The notes under the pieces were generated by a model. It was not told the origin of the DNA. It did not search any database and saw only the letters and a list, made by a program, of their open reading frames with translations. A stretch of DNA of 52,163 nt, from the NCBI GenBank assembly GCA_030603565.1, contig JAUVXM010000011.1, forward strand, positions 1 to 52,163. The letters are read 5' to 3'. Every line of letters begins with the position of its first letter. The stretch's first letter is position 1. Positions 2,667 to 9,897 of this stretch are shown here, one piece after another. The translations under genes and the position numbers were made by a program. This stretch comes from Candidatus Aminicenantota bacterium (GTDB lineage: Bacteria > Acidobacteriota > Aminicenantia > Aminicenantales > Aminicenantaceae).

Positions 2667-4667
2667 ATGAAACAATTTTCTTCAATTTTCTATTTACCAT
2701 TTTCCATTTACCGGATTTTTATTATATTGCTTATCCTGGCTTTGGCTTCATGTTCGCTTTTTAAGGCAAAGACACTTCTTTACCCTGATGGGATCATCTT
2801 CCCAATGGAAAAAATCCGGGAAAGTTTTTTTGATAGTGAGCCTATTGAGATAATTCACAGAGAAAAAAACAAATTGTATTTTTCTACTCGGGGGGGGAAA
2901 GTAATCTGTTTTGACATTGAAGAAAAAAAAACGGCTTGGGAATTTCAGGTCAAGGGAAAAATAGAATCACCTCTGAACCGAGGACAGGATAATTTTTATG
3001 TGCATAATGATAAGGGCATATTGTATTGCCTGAGCTTGAGGGGAAAGCTAATATGGGAAACAAAGATCGGAGATAAAATTACAAGTGGCGTCCATGAAAG
3101 CGGCTCAAAAGTATATTTAGGAACTGAGAAAGGGAAGCTTATTGCTCTTAATGAAAAAGGGGAAAAGCTCTGGTTTTTCAAGTCAGGAGGAGAGATAAAG
3201 TCGATTCCCGTATCAGCAGCAGGCAAAGTCATTTTCGGATGCGATGATGGAAAAATATATTTTATCAACACTGACGGCATTCTTATTAATACTTATGAGA
3301 CTGAAGGTAAAGTCAGGGGCAGTTTCCTGGTGGATAATAATTTGCTTTATTTTGGGTCCTATGATCATTATTTTTATTGTTTTGATATTAAAAAGCACAA
3401 AGTCAAGTGGCGGATAAAAACTGGAGGCATCATTCATTCTTTTCCTGTGTCTTGGGGAAAGCGGATTTATTTTCTGAGTTACAATAATGTTTTATACTGT
3501 CTGAATAAAAAAAACGGGACTATTATATGGTGGACCATTGTTCCTGCCCGAAGTTTTTACAGATTGGAGTTTGCAGATGATAAAATTGTTGTCTCATCTA
3601 TGTCGGATAAGCTGATCTGTTTTGATGCGAAAACAGGAGAACAGAAGGGAAGTTATAATGCCCTGTGGGAGGCAGGAAGTAATCCTTTATGGGTAGATCC
3701 CTACCTGATAATTTCAGTTTATGATGAGGATGAAGAAACTGCGAAGCTTATATTCATGCAAAAGGAAGTTAAGGTGTCTTTATCTGCCTCCAAAATTTCT
3801 CCTCGGAATATTAATGAAGAAGTTGTTTTTACGGCAGAGGTCACTGGATTTTATCTTCCTCAATATGAGTTTTATTCCCACCGTTTTATAAAAATTAATT
3901 TTGGTTTTTTCCCCTTACCGGTGGTCCCATTTACCCAGGAACGGGAGATTGTTCAGGCTAAATCAGAGGAGAATACTTGGAGCTGGTTTCCCGAAGATGA
4001 AGGGATACACCGGATTGAAGTTTTGGCTGAGGATGAAAAAGAAAAGTCTGAAGCTGAAATATATTTTGAAATCACAAAAAGTGATGAAGAAGATGCAAAT
4101 AAAAATAAAGGAGATTTAGGTATGAACCGGAATGAAGCTTTCGAATTAGTGAAAAAAAATCTGAAAAATAAGAACCTGGTGAAGCACTCGCTTTCTGTAG
4201 AAGCCTGTATGAGAGCTTTGGCGGAAAAACTCGGGGAAGATGTGGAAAAATGGGGGTTAGCCGGGATCCTCCATGACATTGATTACGAGATGACTGAAAA
4301 AGACCCAGAGAAACACACTGTAGAGGCAGTTAAGATTCTGGAAGGGTTTAATGTGGGCTCAGATATTATCTATTCTATCCAGGCTCACGCCGGGATCGTT
4401 CCCTGCAAAAGTAAAATGGACTGGGCGATTTTTTCTATTGATCCTCTGACAGGGCTTATTATTGCTGCCACATTGATGCACCCCAATAAAAAATTAGAGG
4501 ATGTAGACCTGGGGTTTATCCAGAGAAGGTATAAGGAAAAAAGCTTTGCCAGGGGAGCAAAACGTGAGGATATCGAACAGATCGCCAATATCGACATGGA
4601 GCTGGATGAATTTATTTCAATTTGCCTTAAGGCAATGCAGGGGATTTCCAAAGAACTCGGCTTATGA
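2667..4667 (+). CDS. PQQ-propeller lipoprotein fused in frame to an HD-domain protein
   Basis: This is a 666-residue open frame. Residues 1-29 are a lipoprotein signal (hydrophobic stretch, lipobox ALASC with Cys29). Residues about 55-340 are PQQ/BamB-like beta-propeller blades, with repeats such as GKVICFDIEEKKTAWEFQVKG and GKLIALNEKGEKLWFFKSGG-like units. Residues about 365-470 look like an Ig-like/beta-sandwich domain. Residues 486-666 are an HD-domain hydrolase (LAGILHDIDYE, then KHTVEA). The first part should be exported; the last is normally a separate cytosolic protein. A strong internal Shine-Dalgarno precedes Met486, so two products are likely, and the lipoprotein may simply have lost its stop. 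The stop overlaps mobB by 4 bases. No Shine-Dalgarno is seen at the first ATG. Confidence 0.75.
   Translation: MKQFSSIFYLPFSIYRIFIILLILALASCSLFKAKTLLYPDGIIFPMEKIRESFFDSEPIEIIHREKNKLYFSTRGGKVICFDIEEKKTAWEFQVKGKIESPLNRGQDNFYVHNDKGILYCLSLRGKLIWETKIGDKITSGVHESGSKVYLGTEKGKLIALNEKGEKLWFFKSGGEIKSIPVSAAGKVIFGCDDGKIYFINTDGILINTYETEGKVRGSFLVDNNLLYFGSYDHYFYCFDIKKHKVKWRIKTGGIIHSFPVSWGKRIYFLSYNNVLYCLNKKNGTIIWWTIVPARSFYRLEFADDKIVVSSMSDKLICFDAKTGEQKGSYNALWEAGSNPLWVDPYLIISVYDEDEETAKLIFMQKEVKVSLSASKISPRNINEEVVFTAEVTGFYLPQYEFYSHRFIKINFGFFPLPVVPFTQEREIVQAKSEENTWSWFPEDEGIHRIEVLAEDEKEKSEAEIYFEITKSDEEDANKNKGDLGMNRNEAFELVKKNLKNKNLVKHSLSVEACMRALAEKLGEDVEKWGLAGILHDIDYEMTEKDPEKHTVEAVKILEGFNVGSDIIYSIQAHAGIVPCKSKMDWAIFSIDPLTGLIIAATLMHPNKKLEDVDLGFIQRRYKEKSFARGAKREDIEQIANIDMELDEFISICLKAMQGISKELGL
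4122..4667 (+). CDS. HD-domain (HDIG-type) hydrolase, internal start
   Basis: AAAGGAG at 4108-4114 lies eight bases before ATG at 4122, which is in frame with the upstream lipoprotein frame. The resulting 181-residue protein begins MNRNEAFELVKKNLKNKNLV and has the length and layout of stand-alone cytosolic HD-domain proteins: a helical start, GLAGILHDIDYE with the metal-binding HD pair, KHTVEA, and QAHAG. Its substrate is unknown; relatives are phosphohydrolases. It is followed at once by mobB (4-base overlap). I judge internal initiation more likely than a real fusion protein, but both are possible. Confidence 0.55.
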   Translation: MNRNEAFELVKKNLKNKNLVKHSLSVEACMRALAEKLGEDVEKWGLAGILHDIDYEMTEKDPEKHTVEAVKILEGFNVGSDIIYSIQAHAGIVPCKSKMDWAIFSIDPLTGLIIAATLMHPNKKLEDVDLGFIQRRYKEKSFARGAKREDIEQIANIDMELDEFISICLKAMQGISKELGL

Positions 4668-5158
4668 GATTGATTTCTTTTGTGGGGGATTCTAATACCG
4701 GTAAAACAGAGCTAATAAAGAGGCTTATTAAAGAATTATCTCAAAGGGGATATTCTGTAGCTGTGATCAAACACTGTGTCCATGGTTTTACATTAAGCCC
4801 TGAGGGGAAGGATTCCAGCCAATTCATGGAAGCGGGAGCAGACAGCACAGCAATGTTATCTCCAGAGCGGGTAGCTGTGCTTTTTAGAAATGATGCTGAA
4901 GTAAGTTATGAAGGAATTGCCTGGGAGTTTTTCCCGGGAGCTGATTTTGTGTTGGTCGAAGGGGGACGGGATGACCACAAAACTCGTAAGATAGAGGTTT
5001 TGCGAAAGGGCATCTCAGAAAAAGTGACATGTCCGCTCAATGAGTTGGCTGCTGTAGTCTCAGATGAAAAGATAGAAATAAATAGACCGGTTTTTAATCC
5101 GGAAGAGACCGTTAAAATCGCTGATCTTTTGGAGAAGGAGTATAAAAATGAACAATAA
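4664..5158 (+). CDS. mobB: Molybdopterin-guanine dinucleotide biosynthesis protein MobB
   Basis: A 164-residue P-loop GTPase of the MobB family: Walker A GDSNTGKTE at residues 8-16, VIKHCVHGF (the conserved KH), DSSQFMEAGAD, and VLVEGGRDDHKTRKIEV near the end. MobB assists in attaching a nucleotide to molybdopterin. The ATG overlaps the stop of the HD protein (ATGA), so translation is probably coupled. A molybdenum/tungsten link fits the nearby AOR gene (7735) and the Moco-riboswitch-like leader (7468-7590), although MobA is not in the window. Confidence 0.92.
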   Translation: MRLISFVGDSNTGKTELIKRLIKELSQRGYSVAVIKHCVHGFTLSPEGKDSSQFMEAGADSTAMLSPERVAVLFRNDAEVSYEGIAWEFFPGADFVLVEGGRDDHKTRKIEVLRKGISEKVTCPLNELAAVVSDEKIEINRPVFNPEETVKIADLLEKEYKNEQ

Positions 5159-5450
5159 AATATCTTTTACAATTGATAAGAAGGATATTCCTTTAAATAG
5201 ATTTACCCAACAGATAGTCAGGAATATCGCTCTTGGGATTTTTGCTTCTTTAAAGGATGTCAACGAATATTCTGATACGTTGGTGTTTTATATGAAAAAG
5301 AATAATCAAATTTCTTTGGAGGCCGATGGCGTTGCAGTTGAAATAAATGAATTTGTCATTAAGCTCTCCAGCAATATTTTCCAGGCGATACTGGCATCAT
5401 TGGACGGTATTCCGGATAAGCAGGATTTAGTAGTTATAAAGATTAGATGA
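5148..5450 (+). CDS. Hypothetical protein (100 aa), last gene of the mobB operon
   Basis: This 100-residue protein is not recognised. It starts within the last 11 bases of mobB, with AAGGAG (5132-5137) upstream, so it is almost certainly translated from the same message. It has alternating hydrophobic patterns (LNRFTQQIVRNIALGIFASL; EFVIKLSSNIFQAILASLDG), no membrane helix, no cysteine and no signal peptide. The end, QDLVVIKIR, looks like an edge beta strand. A cytosolic alpha/beta protein is likely. The context suggests a partner of MobB, but that is inference. Confidence 0.75.
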   Translation: MNNKISFTIDKKDIPLNRFTQQIVRNIALGIFASLKDVNEYSDTLVFYMKKNNQISLEADGVAVEINEFVIKLSSNIFQAILASLDGIPDKQDLVVIKIR

Positions 5451-5503: not shown

Positions 5504-7450
5504 TTACAGAAGCGAAGCTTTGAATCCCAGCTCAAAGTAGCGTCCGCGCCAGGGGAATCCGGGTTCAGAATAAATATATAGGTTGAATATATTGGTTGCC
5601 TTAGCAAATAACTCATACCGGTTGATCTGAAAGGATATTATTGAGTCCAGATTGAAATAAGCAGGGATATTTAGAAGTTCTTGGGAGTAGAAATCCAGCC
5701 ATGAGGAGGAGGATGCCATCAACCCCATAAACCCGATACGTACTTGTTTATGTGGAAATACCTGGCAGTTAAAGTTCAGATTGTGAGCCGGCAGCGCATC
5801 CAGAGGCCGGTCATCGCTTTCATTACGGTGGTCAAGATAGGTGTAATTGAAAGTGGCGGATAGCCAGGGGAATGATTTCTGCATCTGTATTTCAAAACCA
5901 TTAATGTAAGCTTTGGCGATATTAAAATAGCGGCGTTGAAAACCATATTCAGGCAGGCGTACACTGTCTATCATATTTTTAAAAGTGGTGATAAAAACTG
6001 CGCCTGTAACAAAGATGTCTTTTTTATAGGTAAATCCCAGCTCCCAGTTTGTTCCTGCTTCGCTGAGAAGGTCAGGGTTTCCGGAGGAGCTTGAGTACAT
6101 GGAACGCATAGAAGGAAATTTTGATTTTTTGGAACAGGAAAAGTGCATATCAAGCTCAGGGATTGGAGAATATTTAATTCCCAGGAGGGGATTAAGCCTG
6201 GAATTGTCAGAACCTAAGAATTTGTCGAGATAATCATAACTAAGGCCACCGACAAGTTTCCAGTCGTCAAAAAGTCTTAAGTGGTCTTCGATGCCGATAG
6301 AGAAAGTTAGTTGGTCAAATATGTCCCAGGATTCACCTACATCACCCTGAGTACGTGCTTCATCTCCTTTGTAATTTATGGAAATCTTAAGCTGATTTTC
6401 CCGGCTTATATATATGTCTGTGAGGCCGAAAAGCCCGTAGACAGCATTATCAAAGGTGCTTTCAAAACGGCGCTGGGTCATTTCAGCATCTTTGAACATA
6501 TCCAGGGTATTATTATATTCCACATAATAAGCGCGGAAACGCAATGTTGATTTTTGTCCCAAAGCTGTGTATCCGCCAGTATTAAAACTATATCTGTCCC
6601 AATTTTTAAAGCGCCAGTATCTGGGTTTATAAGCATTGATCTCAGGCGGCATAGAATAATCAGAAAGGTATATACTGCTGTTAAAAAGGAGCTCGGTCTG
6701 ATCATTGGGGTTATAATAGAGCTTAGCATTGAGATTTGTTCTTTGATATTCACTACTGCTTCTTTCCATCCTGCTTCCGGTTTTTTCATCCGGGAAATAA
6801 AATCCATCTGAATCCTGGTAGAGCAATGTTCCTGAGAAGGCAAAACGATTCCATTGAAAACCTGATTGAAGTCCCAGGCTTCGAGTGCTTTTCCCCCCTA
6901 AAGATGTATTTATTGATAATACCGGTTTTCCTGAGGGTCTCTTGGTTATAACGTTGACTATTCCGCCTAAGGTATTAGGTCCATAGAGTACTGATGAGGG
7001 GCCTTTTGTGATCTGCAGGGAATCTATTCCCCCTGTGGCAATGGTTTTTAGGTCAAAAGTGCTGTAATAAGGCTCATATATAGGTATTCCGTCTATCAAA
7101 AGGGCGATGCGTTTTGCATCCATTCCTCTTAGTTTTAAGGTATATACAGATTTCTCACCCGAAGAGACTGCAACTCCAGGCGCATAACGGATAGCTTCGG
7201 AGAGATCAAGCGGTTTTATCTGTTCGATCTGGGTCGCACCCAGCTTTGTAACCGTGGATACGGGTAATTCCTTGGGATCTTCAGCCAAGACCAAAATTTC
7301 TTCAGTTATTTTTTTTTGGTCTTTTTTTAATTTTTTCTCTTGTTTCTCCTGATATTTTTGAGAAAAACCCAGGGAAGGAAGCAGAAGTAAGCCTGTGATC
7401 AGGAAACTGAAACTGATTTTTTTGAATATGATTGCATTTTTGGTGTCCAT
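5504..7450 (-). CDS. TonB-dependent outer-membrane receptor
   Basis: A 648-residue receptor. Residues 1-30 are a signal peptide (FSFLITGLLLLPSLGFSQ). A short Lys/Glu-rich linker and a TonB-box-like ITEEILVLAED follow. The plug domain (about 65-175) has IRYAPGVAV, YTLKLRGMD, ALLIDGIPIYE, ITKGPSSVLYGPNTLGGIVNVITK. The rest is a 22-strand barrel in the size range of BtuB/FepA-like receptors, with the late motif ATNIFNLYIYSEPGFPWRGR. It ends in Leu rather than the usual Phe. The substrate is not evident from sequence. The gene has its own sigma70 promoter and a structured leader resembling a Moco riboswitch, and AOR is divergent from it, so molybdenum/tungsten uptake is a plausible but unproven role. 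Confidence 0.93.
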   Translation of the reverse strand: MDTKNAIIFKKISFSFLITGLLLLPSLGFSQKYQEKQEKKLKKDQKKITEEILVLAEDPKELPVSTVTKLGATQIEQIKPLDLSEAIRYAPGVAVSSGEKSVYTLKLRGMDAKRIALLIDGIPIYEPYYSTFDLKTIATGGIDSLQITKGPSSVLYGPNTLGGIVNVITKRPSGKPVLSINTSLGGKSTRSLGLQSGFQWNRFAFSGTLLYQDSDGFYFPDEKTGSRMERSSSEYQRTNLNAKLYYNPNDQTELLFNSSIYLSDYSMPPEINAYKPRYWRFKNWDRYSFNTGGYTALGQKSTLRFRAYYVEYNNTLDMFKDAEMTQRRFESTFDNAVYGLFGLTDIYISRENQLKISINYKGDEARTQGDVGESWDIFDQLTFSIGIEDHLRLFDDWKLVGGLSYDYLDKFLGSDNSRLNPLLGIKYSPIPELDMHFSCSKKSKFPSMRSMYSSSSGNPDLLSEAGTNWELGFTYKKDIFVTGAVFITTFKNMIDSVRLPEYGFQRRYFNIAKAYINGFEIQMQKSFPWLSATFNYTYLDHRNESDDRPLDALPAHNLNFNCQVFPHKQVRIGFMGLMASSSSWLDFYSQELLNIPAYFNLDSIISFQINRYELFAKATNIFNLYIYSEPGFPWRGRYFELGFKASLL

Positions 7451-7467
7451 GATTTCTCCTTTTCAAA

Positions 7468-7590
7468 TACGGAAGGTAACCCCGTTTCCAGGGTTGCCCT
7501 GGCCTGGATTTCTCGTTTTTGTTGGAGAACCAGGCTCACGGTCAAAGAACATTGCTGAGATGCGTTAGCTCTTTTGACTCGGAGTAATTT
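7468..7590 (-). promoter_or_regulatory. Structured leader, candidate Moco (molybdenum/tungsten cofactor) riboswitch
   Basis: On the minus strand the transcript would begin just before TTACTCCGAG. An 11-bp stem (GCCTGGTTCTC with GAGAA-CCAGGC) follows. Then GGCAACCCTG pairs with CGGGGTTACC around a GAAA tetraloop, and the leader ends CTTCCG. This order (CUCCGAG start, GCCUGG/CCAGGC stem, GNRA-capped stem, UUACCUUCCG end) resembles the Moco RNA motif as I remember it; I could not run a covariance search. The aptamer ends about 12 bases before the Shine-Dalgarno AAAGGAG (7454-7460), so translation control is likely. The mobB and AOR neighbours support a Mo/W ligand. Confidence 0.55.
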
Positions 7591-7593
7591 TGG

Positions 7594-7622
7594 ATTATAG
7601 CAAGAAGGTCACGTAATATCAA
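7594..7622 (-). promoter_or_regulatory. Sigma70 promoter of the TonB-receptor gene
   Basis: On the minus strand TTGATA (7622-7617) and TATAAT (7599-7594) are separated by 17 bases. Transcription would start near 7587, immediately before the putative aptamer. Confidence 0.75.
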
Positions 7623-7734: not shown

Positions 7735-9897
7735 ATGAATGTAAAGGAAATGAAGGCTAAACATGAGCTTTTACGAGAGTATTCCTATGATTTATCTGAG
7801 CTTGAAAGAGGTTATAATAACCGCACGCTCTATATTAACCTCAGTGATAAAACTATAAAAGAAAAACCGGTGACAGAACAGATGAAAGAGAAGTTTATCG
7901 GGGGAAAAGGATTTGGGTTAAGATTGCTGTGGGATGGAACCAAACCTGATACCAAGTGGGATGACCCGGAAAACGAGATCATTATTTCTCCTGGGCCTAT
8001 AGCCGGGATCACTCAGTATTCAGGTACTGGAAAATCTCTTGTCGTATCCATATCTCCTACCACGAACCTGGTCATAGATAGTAATGTCGGAGGCTACTTC
8101 GGACCGTTTTTAAAGTTTTCCGGATTTGATGCTCTTGAACTCCAGGGGAAAGCTGAGGATGATGTAATATTAATTATTGATGGTACTACAGGGACTATTT
8201 CTATCGAAAAAGCGACGGAAGAAGCAGTAGACTCACATATCCTAGTAGAGCAGTTGACAGAGATGTATGCTGATGACGAAAAGGATAAAAGGAACATTTC
8301 TGTAGTCTCTGCTGGAAGTGCTGCGGAAAATACTTTAATCGGTATGTTGAACTTCAGCTGGTATGATGTTAAAAGAAAAGAATGCCGGATAAAACAGGCT
8401 GGTCGTGGTGGTATAGGTACGGTTTTTAGAAATAAAAATATTAAAGCCCTGGTTGTTAAATCGGGAAAAATAAAGCCGAATATGAATAATGTTGTAGACC
8501 TGCCAGCAATTATGGAAAGGGGAAAAAGATTTGCCAAAGAAATGCGGGAACTGGATGATGAACAATCCCAGATGAAGCAGGTCGGTACTGCCCATCTCAT
8601 AGAGATCATGAATGATTATGACCTTCTGCCTGTACACAATTTTAAATATGGGTCCCATAAGGATGTTTCCAAGATGGACTCTAAAGTTTTAAAGACTAGA
8701 TTTACTCAAGGGAAGCCGGATGGATGCTGGCTTGGGTGTATGATGTCCTGTTGTAAAACAGTTGAGAATTTTGAGCTTAAAACAGGGCCATATAAAGGGC
8801 AAAAAGTGACGGTTGAGGGTCCAGAATATGAGACAGCAGGCGGAGTCGGCTCTAATTGCGGTATTTTTGATGTAGATGCTATTTTAGAATTAAATTTTTA
8901 CTGTGATACATATGGAATTGATACTATCTCATTTGGAACCTTAGTCGCTTTTATCATGGAGTGCTTTGAAAACAGAATGATCAATGAGGATATCACCGGG
9001 GGTTTGAAGATGAATTTTGGAAATGCCGCAGCTTCCCTGGAACTTATTCATCAAATGGCCAAAGGAGAAGGGTTTGGCTTGGTGGCAGGATTAGGTGTGC
9101 GTAAAATGAAAGAAAAATTTGTTAAGGATTATGGAGCGGATCCGGATTTCCTCCAGGATATAGGGATGGAAAACAAAGGATTGGAATATTCCCAGTATGT
9201 AGCAAAAGAATCTTTGGCTCAACAAGGTGGTTTTGCCATGACCAATAAAGGCCCCCAGCATGATGAAGCCTGGTTGATCTTTATGGATATGGTAAATAAA
9301 CAGATCCCCACATTTGAGGATAAAGCTGAAGCCCTGCATTATTTTCCTATGTTCAGAACCTGGTTTGGCCTGATGGGATTATGTAAGCTGCCGTGGAATG
9401 ATGTTGAACCGGCGGATAATGCTGAGACTGATGAACCGGCTAAAGTTCCTGAGCATCTTGATAATTATGTCACTATATTTAATGCTGTAACCGGGAAAAA
9501 TATTGACAAGCATGAATTGATAAGGCAGTCAGAGCGGGTCTATAATTTCCAGAGGATATTTAATCTCAGGAGAGGATATGGAAAGAGGAAACATGATGCC
9601 CAGCCTTACCGGGCTGCCGGACCTGTGACCGTGGAGGAGTATGAGTCCAGGCAGGATAGATATGACCAGCAGATGAAGGAAATAATCGGAATTGATCCGG
9701 AAGGAAAATCAACAGCGGAGAAGGTCAAGATCACAAGAAAGCACAGAGAAGAAGCATATGAAAAATTACTTGACGCGGTTTATAAACGAAGAGGCTGGAC
9801 GAGAAATGGTATCCCTAAGGTCGAGCACTTAAAAGAGATTAAAATGGATTTGCCGGAGCTTATTAAGGTGGTTAAGCCATACCTGGACTATTCATAA
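7735..9897 (+). CDS. Aldehyde:ferredoxin oxidoreductase family tungsten/molybdenum enzyme
   Basis: This 720-residue AOR-family protein should oxidise aldehydes, or a related substrate, with ferredoxin, using a bis-pyranopterin W/Mo cofactor. The N-terminal AOR domain has YINLSDKTIKE, FIGGKGFGLRLLW, PGPIAGITQYSGTGK, NVGGYFGPFLKFSGFDAL and GRGGIGTVFRNKNIKALVV. The iron-sulfur region GCWLGCMMSCCK (Cys331, 335, 339, 340) has C-x3-C-x3-C spacing rather than the classical C-x2-C-x3-C; the likely fourth ligand is Cys550 in GLCKLPW. It is about 100 residues longer than typical AOR, with an N-terminal extension and a charged tail, so the substrate may differ. TAAGGAGA precedes the ATG. The last four codons and the TAA are made by a repeat-A end (CTGGACTATTCATAA). 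Confidence 0.93.
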   Translation: MNVKEMKAKHELLREYSYDLSELERGYNNRTLYINLSDKTIKEKPVTEQMKEKFIGGKGFGLRLLWDGTKPDTKWDDPENEIIISPGPIAGITQYSGTGKSLVVSISPTTNLVIDSNVGGYFGPFLKFSGFDALELQGKAEDDVILIIDGTTGTISIEKATEEAVDSHILVEQLTEMYADDEKDKRNISVVSAGSAAENTLIGMLNFSWYDVKRKECRIKQAGRGGIGTVFRNKNIKALVVKSGKIKPNMNNVVDLPAIMERGKRFAKEMRELDDEQSQMKQVGTAHLIEIMNDYDLLPVHNFKYGSHKDVSKMDSKVLKTRFTQGKPDGCWLGCMMSCCKTVENFELKTGPYKGQKVTVEGPEYETAGGVGSNCGIFDVDAILELNFYCDTYGIDTISFGTLVAFIMECFENRMINEDITGGLKMNFGNAAASLELIHQMAKGEGFGLVAGLGVRKMKEKFVKDYGADPDFLQDIGMENKGLEYSQYVAKESLAQQGGFAMTNKGPQHDEAWLIFMDMVNKQIPTFEDKAEALHYFPMFRTWFGLMGLCKLPWNDVEPADNAETDEPAKVPEHLDNYVTIFNAVTGKNIDKHELIRQSERVYNFQRIFNLRRGYGKRKHDAQPYRAAGPVTVEEYESRQDRYDQQMKEIIGIDPEGKSTAEKVKITRKHREEAYEKLLDAVYKRRGWTRNGIPKVEHLKEIKMDLPELIKVVKPYLDYS

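Follow-up and report, generated by a model that had tools for sequence, protein, structure and literature searches.

A Moco/Tuco riboswitch before a TonB-dependent receptor in Aminicenantia points to an outer-membrane route for tungsten or molybdenum

Tungstate and molybdate uptake is treated as beginning at the inner membrane, with ModABC, TupABC or WtpABC. The 52,163-nt contig JAUVXM010000011.1 of a Candidatus Aminicenantota bacterium (the whole stretch analysed, called the window here) raised the question of whether an earlier, outer-membrane step is under cofactor control, as the initial annotation had read a Moco RNA motif directly behind the promoter of a TonB receptor. We asked what this RNA is, how it might act, and what the receptor might carry.

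The leader RNA and its predicted mode of action

The Rfam scan of the window matched minus-strand nucleotides 7596-7440 to the full RF01055 model (1-135) at 74.9 bits, with an E-value of 2.3e-16 and a gathering score of 36 bits, which bears out the Moco motif. Apart from RF01055, Rfam matched three tRNAs in the window and nothing else. A cobalamin or other riboswitch class at the locus, the competing assignment that the initial annotation had named, was rejected because the scan gave none. No second RF01055 RNA was found in the whole genome (3.1 Mb, 149 contigs), and the window copy is the single one. The features of the leader are as follows.

7594..7622, minus strand: sigma-70-type promoter, -35 TTGATA (7622-7617), 17-nt spacer, -10 TATAAT (7599-7594); from sequence, position conserved in relatives
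7440..7596, minus strand: RF01055 Moco/Tuco riboswitch aptamer, full length; Rfam, 74.9 bits versus 36
7584-7578, minus strand: CTCCGAG; from sequence
7541..7578, minus strand: P2 with internal CUAA...AUG bulge (tetraloop-receptor region); Rfam alignment, covariation in 43 leaders
7502..7535, minus strand: P3 hairpin with GCCTGG/CCAGGC stem, GCCUGGUUCUC/GAGAA-AU-CCAGGC; alignment and folding, absent in 41 aligned receptor leaders outside the genus
7475..7499, minus strand: P4 with GAAA tetraloop cap; Rfam alignment, covariation
7456..7459, minus strand: GGAG of the Shine-Dalgarno, forming the P1 3' strand and pairing with CUCC 7584-7581; putative translational expression platform; Rfam alignment, folding

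The CUCCGAG start, the GCCUGG/CCAGGC stem, the GAAA-capped stem and the adjacent Shine-Dalgarno first described are all present in the sequence. The extent first given, 7468-7622, holds the promoter and leader, and its inner limit needed correction: the RNA runs past 7468 to the start codon. The GAAA-capped stem is followed by TTACCTTCCG, and AAAGGAG lies five bases 5' of the receptor ATG (7450); the conserved RF01055 core (CUCCGAG, CUAA/AUG bulge, GAAA-capped P4 and AAAGGAG) is complete. Folded alone, the P3 hairpin (7535-7502) forms 11 base pairs at -14.5 kcal/mol.

Among 43 receptor leaders, 15 of the 21 predicted pairs of P2 and P4 were maintained despite changes on both sides. P1 is invariant and therefore yields no covariation evidence; RNAalifold on the full alignment omitted it, P1 being invariant and some rows lying one column out of register.

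The promoter with perfect spacing that had been claimed is present (TTGATA-N17-TATAAT). In most of 39 receptor leaders the -10 element ends 8-9 nt 5' of CTCCGA, and the mean hexamer score of these leaders was 9.1 of 12, compared to 7.2 in shuffled sequence. A chance promoter was rejected, as this layout is conserved across receptor leaders. Transcription is predicted to start at ~7588, in which case the transcript would lack the outermost pairs that the Rfam model gives to P1. That probable loss is what could be said for a chance or decayed match with no regulatory role, a reading we can hardly credit given the E-value, the presence of the whole structure, the conserved promoter and spacing, the covariation, and an intact copy in a sister species whose receptor has 93% identity. 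The leader is a true representative of the Moco/Tuco riboswitch family, and regulation would follow from that membership.

The joint best explanation, which we consider probable, is a translational OFF switch that responds to a Mo/W-pterin cofactor and controls a TonB receptor for tungsten or molybdenum species; family membership, position, conservation and presence alongside W transport genes are observed, whereas ligand binding, switch direction and transported substrate we infer. When the cofactor (Mo- or W-pterin) is abundant, the aptamer would be bound, P1 (CUCC:GGAG) would be stabilised and the receptor Shine-Dalgarno would be hidden; when it is scarce, P1 would open and the receptor would be made. 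P1 was strong when the whole Rfam region was folded. In the predicted transcript from ~7588 it was marginal, with the GGAG bases unpaired at 0.3-0.7, which fits a helix needing stabilisation by ligand and hence an OFF switch at translation. Thermodynamic folding found no clean alternative ON structure. A Moco RNA laid out in the same way, that of E. coli moaA, has been shown genetically to act as an OFF element (PMC2408646). The moaABCDE RNA shares the P1-P5 aptamer, the GAAA tetraloop, the Shine-Dalgarno inside P1 and the P3 stem with the window RNA, but it controls biosynthesis, whereas the window RNA would control an outer-membrane receptor.

The receptor, its neighbours and its regulon

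5504..7450, minus strand: TonB-dependent receptor, 648 aa, plug and beta-barrel, predicted tungsten/molybdenum outer-membrane transporter; PF07715, PF00593, structure model
7735..9897, plus strand: AOR-family (tungsten-type) oxidoreductase, 720 aa, divergent from the receptor; PF01314/PF02730
4664..5158, plus strand: MobB-like protein of molybdopterin-guanine dinucleotide biosynthesis; PF03205 and TIGR00176, both exceeding the cut-off
5148..5450, plus strand: small protein, 11-base overlap with mobB, similar to the C-terminal portion of a family of MobB fusions; NF011062 partial, E = 1.7e-7

Both the plug (PF07715) and the barrel (PF00593) scored above cut-off, and the predicted model has an ordinary TonB receptor fold, with BtuB as the nearest solved structure. 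The receptor reached only 121.7 bits against the BtuB equivalog model TIGR01779 (cut-off 599.7), and general receptor families (BtuB, siderophore) matched it below their cut-offs; its ligand cannot be read off its own sequence.

The initial annotation had placed mobB and AOR on either side of the receptor, and the domain matches listed above agree. mobB lies downstream of the receptor and points towards it. The best solved relatives of the AOR-family protein are tungsten AOR/FOR/WOR enzymes; no RF01055 was present on the AOR side of the intergenic region, and the divergent receptor/AOR pair recurs in three further genomes (G017, G021 and G027). At 2667-4667 of the window, a single 666-aa ORF combines beta-propeller-like and HD-domain-like parts that are two genes in another genome (L057). 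The genome of the window encodes both AOR and molybdopterin-family enzymes.

RF01055 was present in 62 of 99 relatives. Eighty of these loci, together with the window, gave 81 RNAs from 61 genomes of the class, and the downstream gene was read for each; since related genomes share ancestry, the counts are not independent. The downstream gene was a receptor of this family in 39 cases, TupA-like in 25, WtpA-like in eight, MoeA in three, a PF01497 binding protein in three, ModA in one and another gene in two. A TonB receptor had been regarded as an unusual target; it proved to be the commonest RF01055 target in this lineage, and the expected conservation of the leader before homologous receptors was borne out. 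The receptor start codon usually falls within the last bases of the RF01055 match. Thirteen genomes carry separate RNAs for receptor and TupA, and one carries them for receptor and WtpA. The WtpA tested scored above the cut-off of its NCBIfam model, and NF041772 matched the tested TupA proteins strongly (E down to 1e-63), yet below the strict cut-off. Since the RF01055 targets of the class include TupA, WtpA, ModA, MoeA and moaA, all Mo/W transport or synthesis genes, we infer that the receptor itself is a Mo/W gene.

Some relatives have TupA leaders with an intrinsic terminator, the 5' arm of which (CUUUCCU) is able to pair with AGGAAAG of the aptamer end. This would agree with an OFF switch acting on transcription, a putative transcriptional platform within the same regulon. 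The terminator is strong and lies 3' of the aptamer in the TupA leaders of L036, L042, L089 and L097.

Named genomes with receptor relatives are nearly all MAGs of Candidatus Aminicenantes (Acidobacteriota). One MAG titled Clostridiales (L164/G046, JARYMI010000006.1) has an Aminicenantes-type receptor and itself groups with the Aminicenantes order in the genome set; it is probably mislabelled. Outside the order, further families within the class and the phylum also have the leader 5' of a receptor homologue (L193, L196, L197, L255, L258-L261), and in a Deltaproteobacteria MAG (L184) it is ~370 nt 5' of the receptor gene. In a tree of 81 receptors, 63 Acidobacteriota sequences group together, 48 with the leader and 15 without, indicating that it was gained or lost several times. 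Oversight of a leader in the 15 orthologues was rejected, as an Rfam rescan gave none at gathering. In G006, one stretch has both a BtuB-like receptor and, upstream, a cobalamin riboswitch (L227:426-608).

Homologues of the receptor in Desulfobacterota have ~30% identity and no leader, and they adjoin tungstate genes. Receptor, companion and TupA stand in line in L169 (5884-10744); in L179 (2233-9161) and L185 (2029-8944), tupABC and an HTH_17-PBP_like gene, possibly an oxyanion-responsive regulator, are divergent from receptor and companion; and TupA is also near a receptor homologue in L174 and L172. This tupABC linkage stands apart from the RNA, and nothing else points to tungstate as strongly.

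Candidate cargoes of the receptor

We propose that the receptor would be a TonB-dependent outer-membrane transporter of a tungsten or molybdenum species (oxyanion, thio-oxyanion or chelate), and that the cargo would pass to periplasmic TupA-, WtpA- or PF01497-type binding proteins where the organism has them. The co-regulated TupA/WtpA operons in the class and tupABC beside the Desulfobacterota receptors strengthen this reading and support the TonB-driven molybdate/tungstate uptake that the initial annotation had suggested, with the substrate itself a prediction. Counting against it, small oxyanions do not usually need a TonB step, 15 Acidobacteriota receptors of the clade have no leader, and WtpA, TupA and ModA were all missing from the window's own genome at an E-value of 0.001, although this is a MAG (93% complete) and MAGs may lack part of a genome. 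The PF01497 proteins of this genome are one in a cobalamin cluster and one adjoining another TonB receptor, both without RF01055.

As a variant, the receptor might import a catecholate or other metallophore with molybdate or tungstate (possibly iron) and not the bare oxyanion. Large chelates are the usual cargo of TonB receptors; in relatives, ABC importers of the PF01497/FecCD type, the normal partners of such receptors, follow P3-bearing RF01055 RNAs, and L186 has a relative of the PF01497 binding protein (41% identical) adjoining a homologous receptor. No metallophore synthesis genes were seen in the neighbourhood of the locus, however, and the Desulfobacterota receptors adjoin TupABC, a binder of free tungstate. 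We hold this variant to be tenable and clearly the less likely form of the proposal.

An unrelated cargo (iron siderophore, B12 or peptide) merely tuned to W/Mo cofactor supply would be in keeping with a receptor whose substrate is not readable and which the BtuB and siderophore families match below cut-off. Shared regulation with TupA/WtpA throughout the class and, in a second phylum, physical linkage to tupABC make it unlikely. With regard to B12, the genome has a cobalamin-synthesis cluster elsewhere with a separate receptor (L253), and there is no cobalamin riboswitch near the locus.

A further alternative concerns the companion, a secreted protein encoded after the receptor in several relatives, including Candidatus Saccharicenans; no companion gene adjoins the receptor in the window. 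Most Acidobacteriota members had no significant Pfam match. A longer Desulfobacterota relative matched PF00174 (Oxidored_molyb) at 32.2 bits (cut-off 24) and has a tetrapyrrole-methylase domain; L169:7942-9714 is such a fusion. The predicted companion structure (pLDDT 88) matched sulfite oxidases and YedY (1xdy) weakly (TM ~0.3-0.4), as might be expected of a diverged tandem of the sulfite-oxidase fold, and the family (e.g., L064:1603-2616) is predicted to consist of tandem molybdopterin-binding (SUOX) domains.

Receptor and secreted SUOX-fold partner could together bring in the pterin cofactor as such (Moco/Tuco or molybdopterin), in the way BtuB imports B12 under a B12 riboswitch. A cofactor riboswitch on a receptor with BtuB as nearest solved fold would suit such a role, as would the predicted molybdopterin-binding domains of the partner and the RF01055 leader that it has of its own in G097. 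A BtuB-like fold is common to many receptors, however, the fold match of the partner is weak, and the partner is absent beside the window receptor. Moreover, free Moco is very unstable (PMC2408646), and the organisms concerned have MobB, MoeA and MoaA genes, which show that the cofactor is made de novo. Cofactor import is accordingly very unlikely.

RF01055 itself is already known. In the literature searched (open-licence PMC papers), we found no TonB receptor tied to it, nor the receptor regulon, the TupABC linkage or the partner protein, and the text of Regulski et al. 2008 (PMC2408646) mentions neither TonB nor the outer membrane. The cobalamin riboswitch-btuB and TPP riboswitch-TonB receptor pairs, both described for Caldithrix (PMC5317091), likewise place a cofactor-sensing RNA on a TonB receptor; here the RNA family differs, and the cargo would be a metal oxyanion or chelate and not a vitamin. 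The tungstate ABC transporter TupABC, the binding protein of which has been called the first selection gate (PMC5517513), shares a regulon or gene neighbourhood with the receptor but acts at the inner membrane. Zur-controlled zinc TonB receptors (PMC4176598) are likewise dedicated to a trace metal, with a protein regulator and a cation where the present system would have an RNA switch and an oxyanion metal. A receptor family under a Mo/W riboswitch and, in another phylum, beside tupABC argues for an energised outer-membrane step, and the riboswitch-receptor pairing, kept in relatives, suggests that scarce tungsten or molybdenum has an outer-membrane route of its own.

Gain of the P3 stem

RNAs containing P3 go with Moco genes and RNAs lacking it with tungsten users (Regulski et al. 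2008, PMC2408646), and P3 as discriminator between the Mo and W cofactors is a proposal that has stood since 2008. P3 presence was read from the alignment and the sequences. It is absent in 41 of the 43 aligned receptor leaders, which in this resemble the Tuco-type RNAs (PMC2408646) and whose co-regulated genes include tungstate transporters; the window and its sister species (L062) differ in having P3 on the same orthologous gene. P3 is also absent in the TupA and WtpA leaders. It is present 5' of moaA (L266, L267) and of PF01497/FecCD ABC genes (L085, L100, L102, L249-L251), the latter possibly MolBCA-like molybdate transporters.

The tree puts P3 of the window and L062 as one gain inside the P3-lacking group. 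It is conceivable, and in our judgement quite unlikely, that receptor and SUOX-fold partner make up a dedicated import system in the outer membrane, for either a pterin cofactor of W or Mo or a particular chelate of tungsten, and that the P3 gain re-tuned the riboswitch from the tungsten to the molybdenum cofactor in the window's genus. In sister genera the same receptor gene has orthologous leaders with and without P3, a natural comparison for the role of P3 in Mo versus W recognition. In the window, the P3-bearing leader serves a receptor that is divergent from a tungsten-type AOR, with mobB beyond the receptor.
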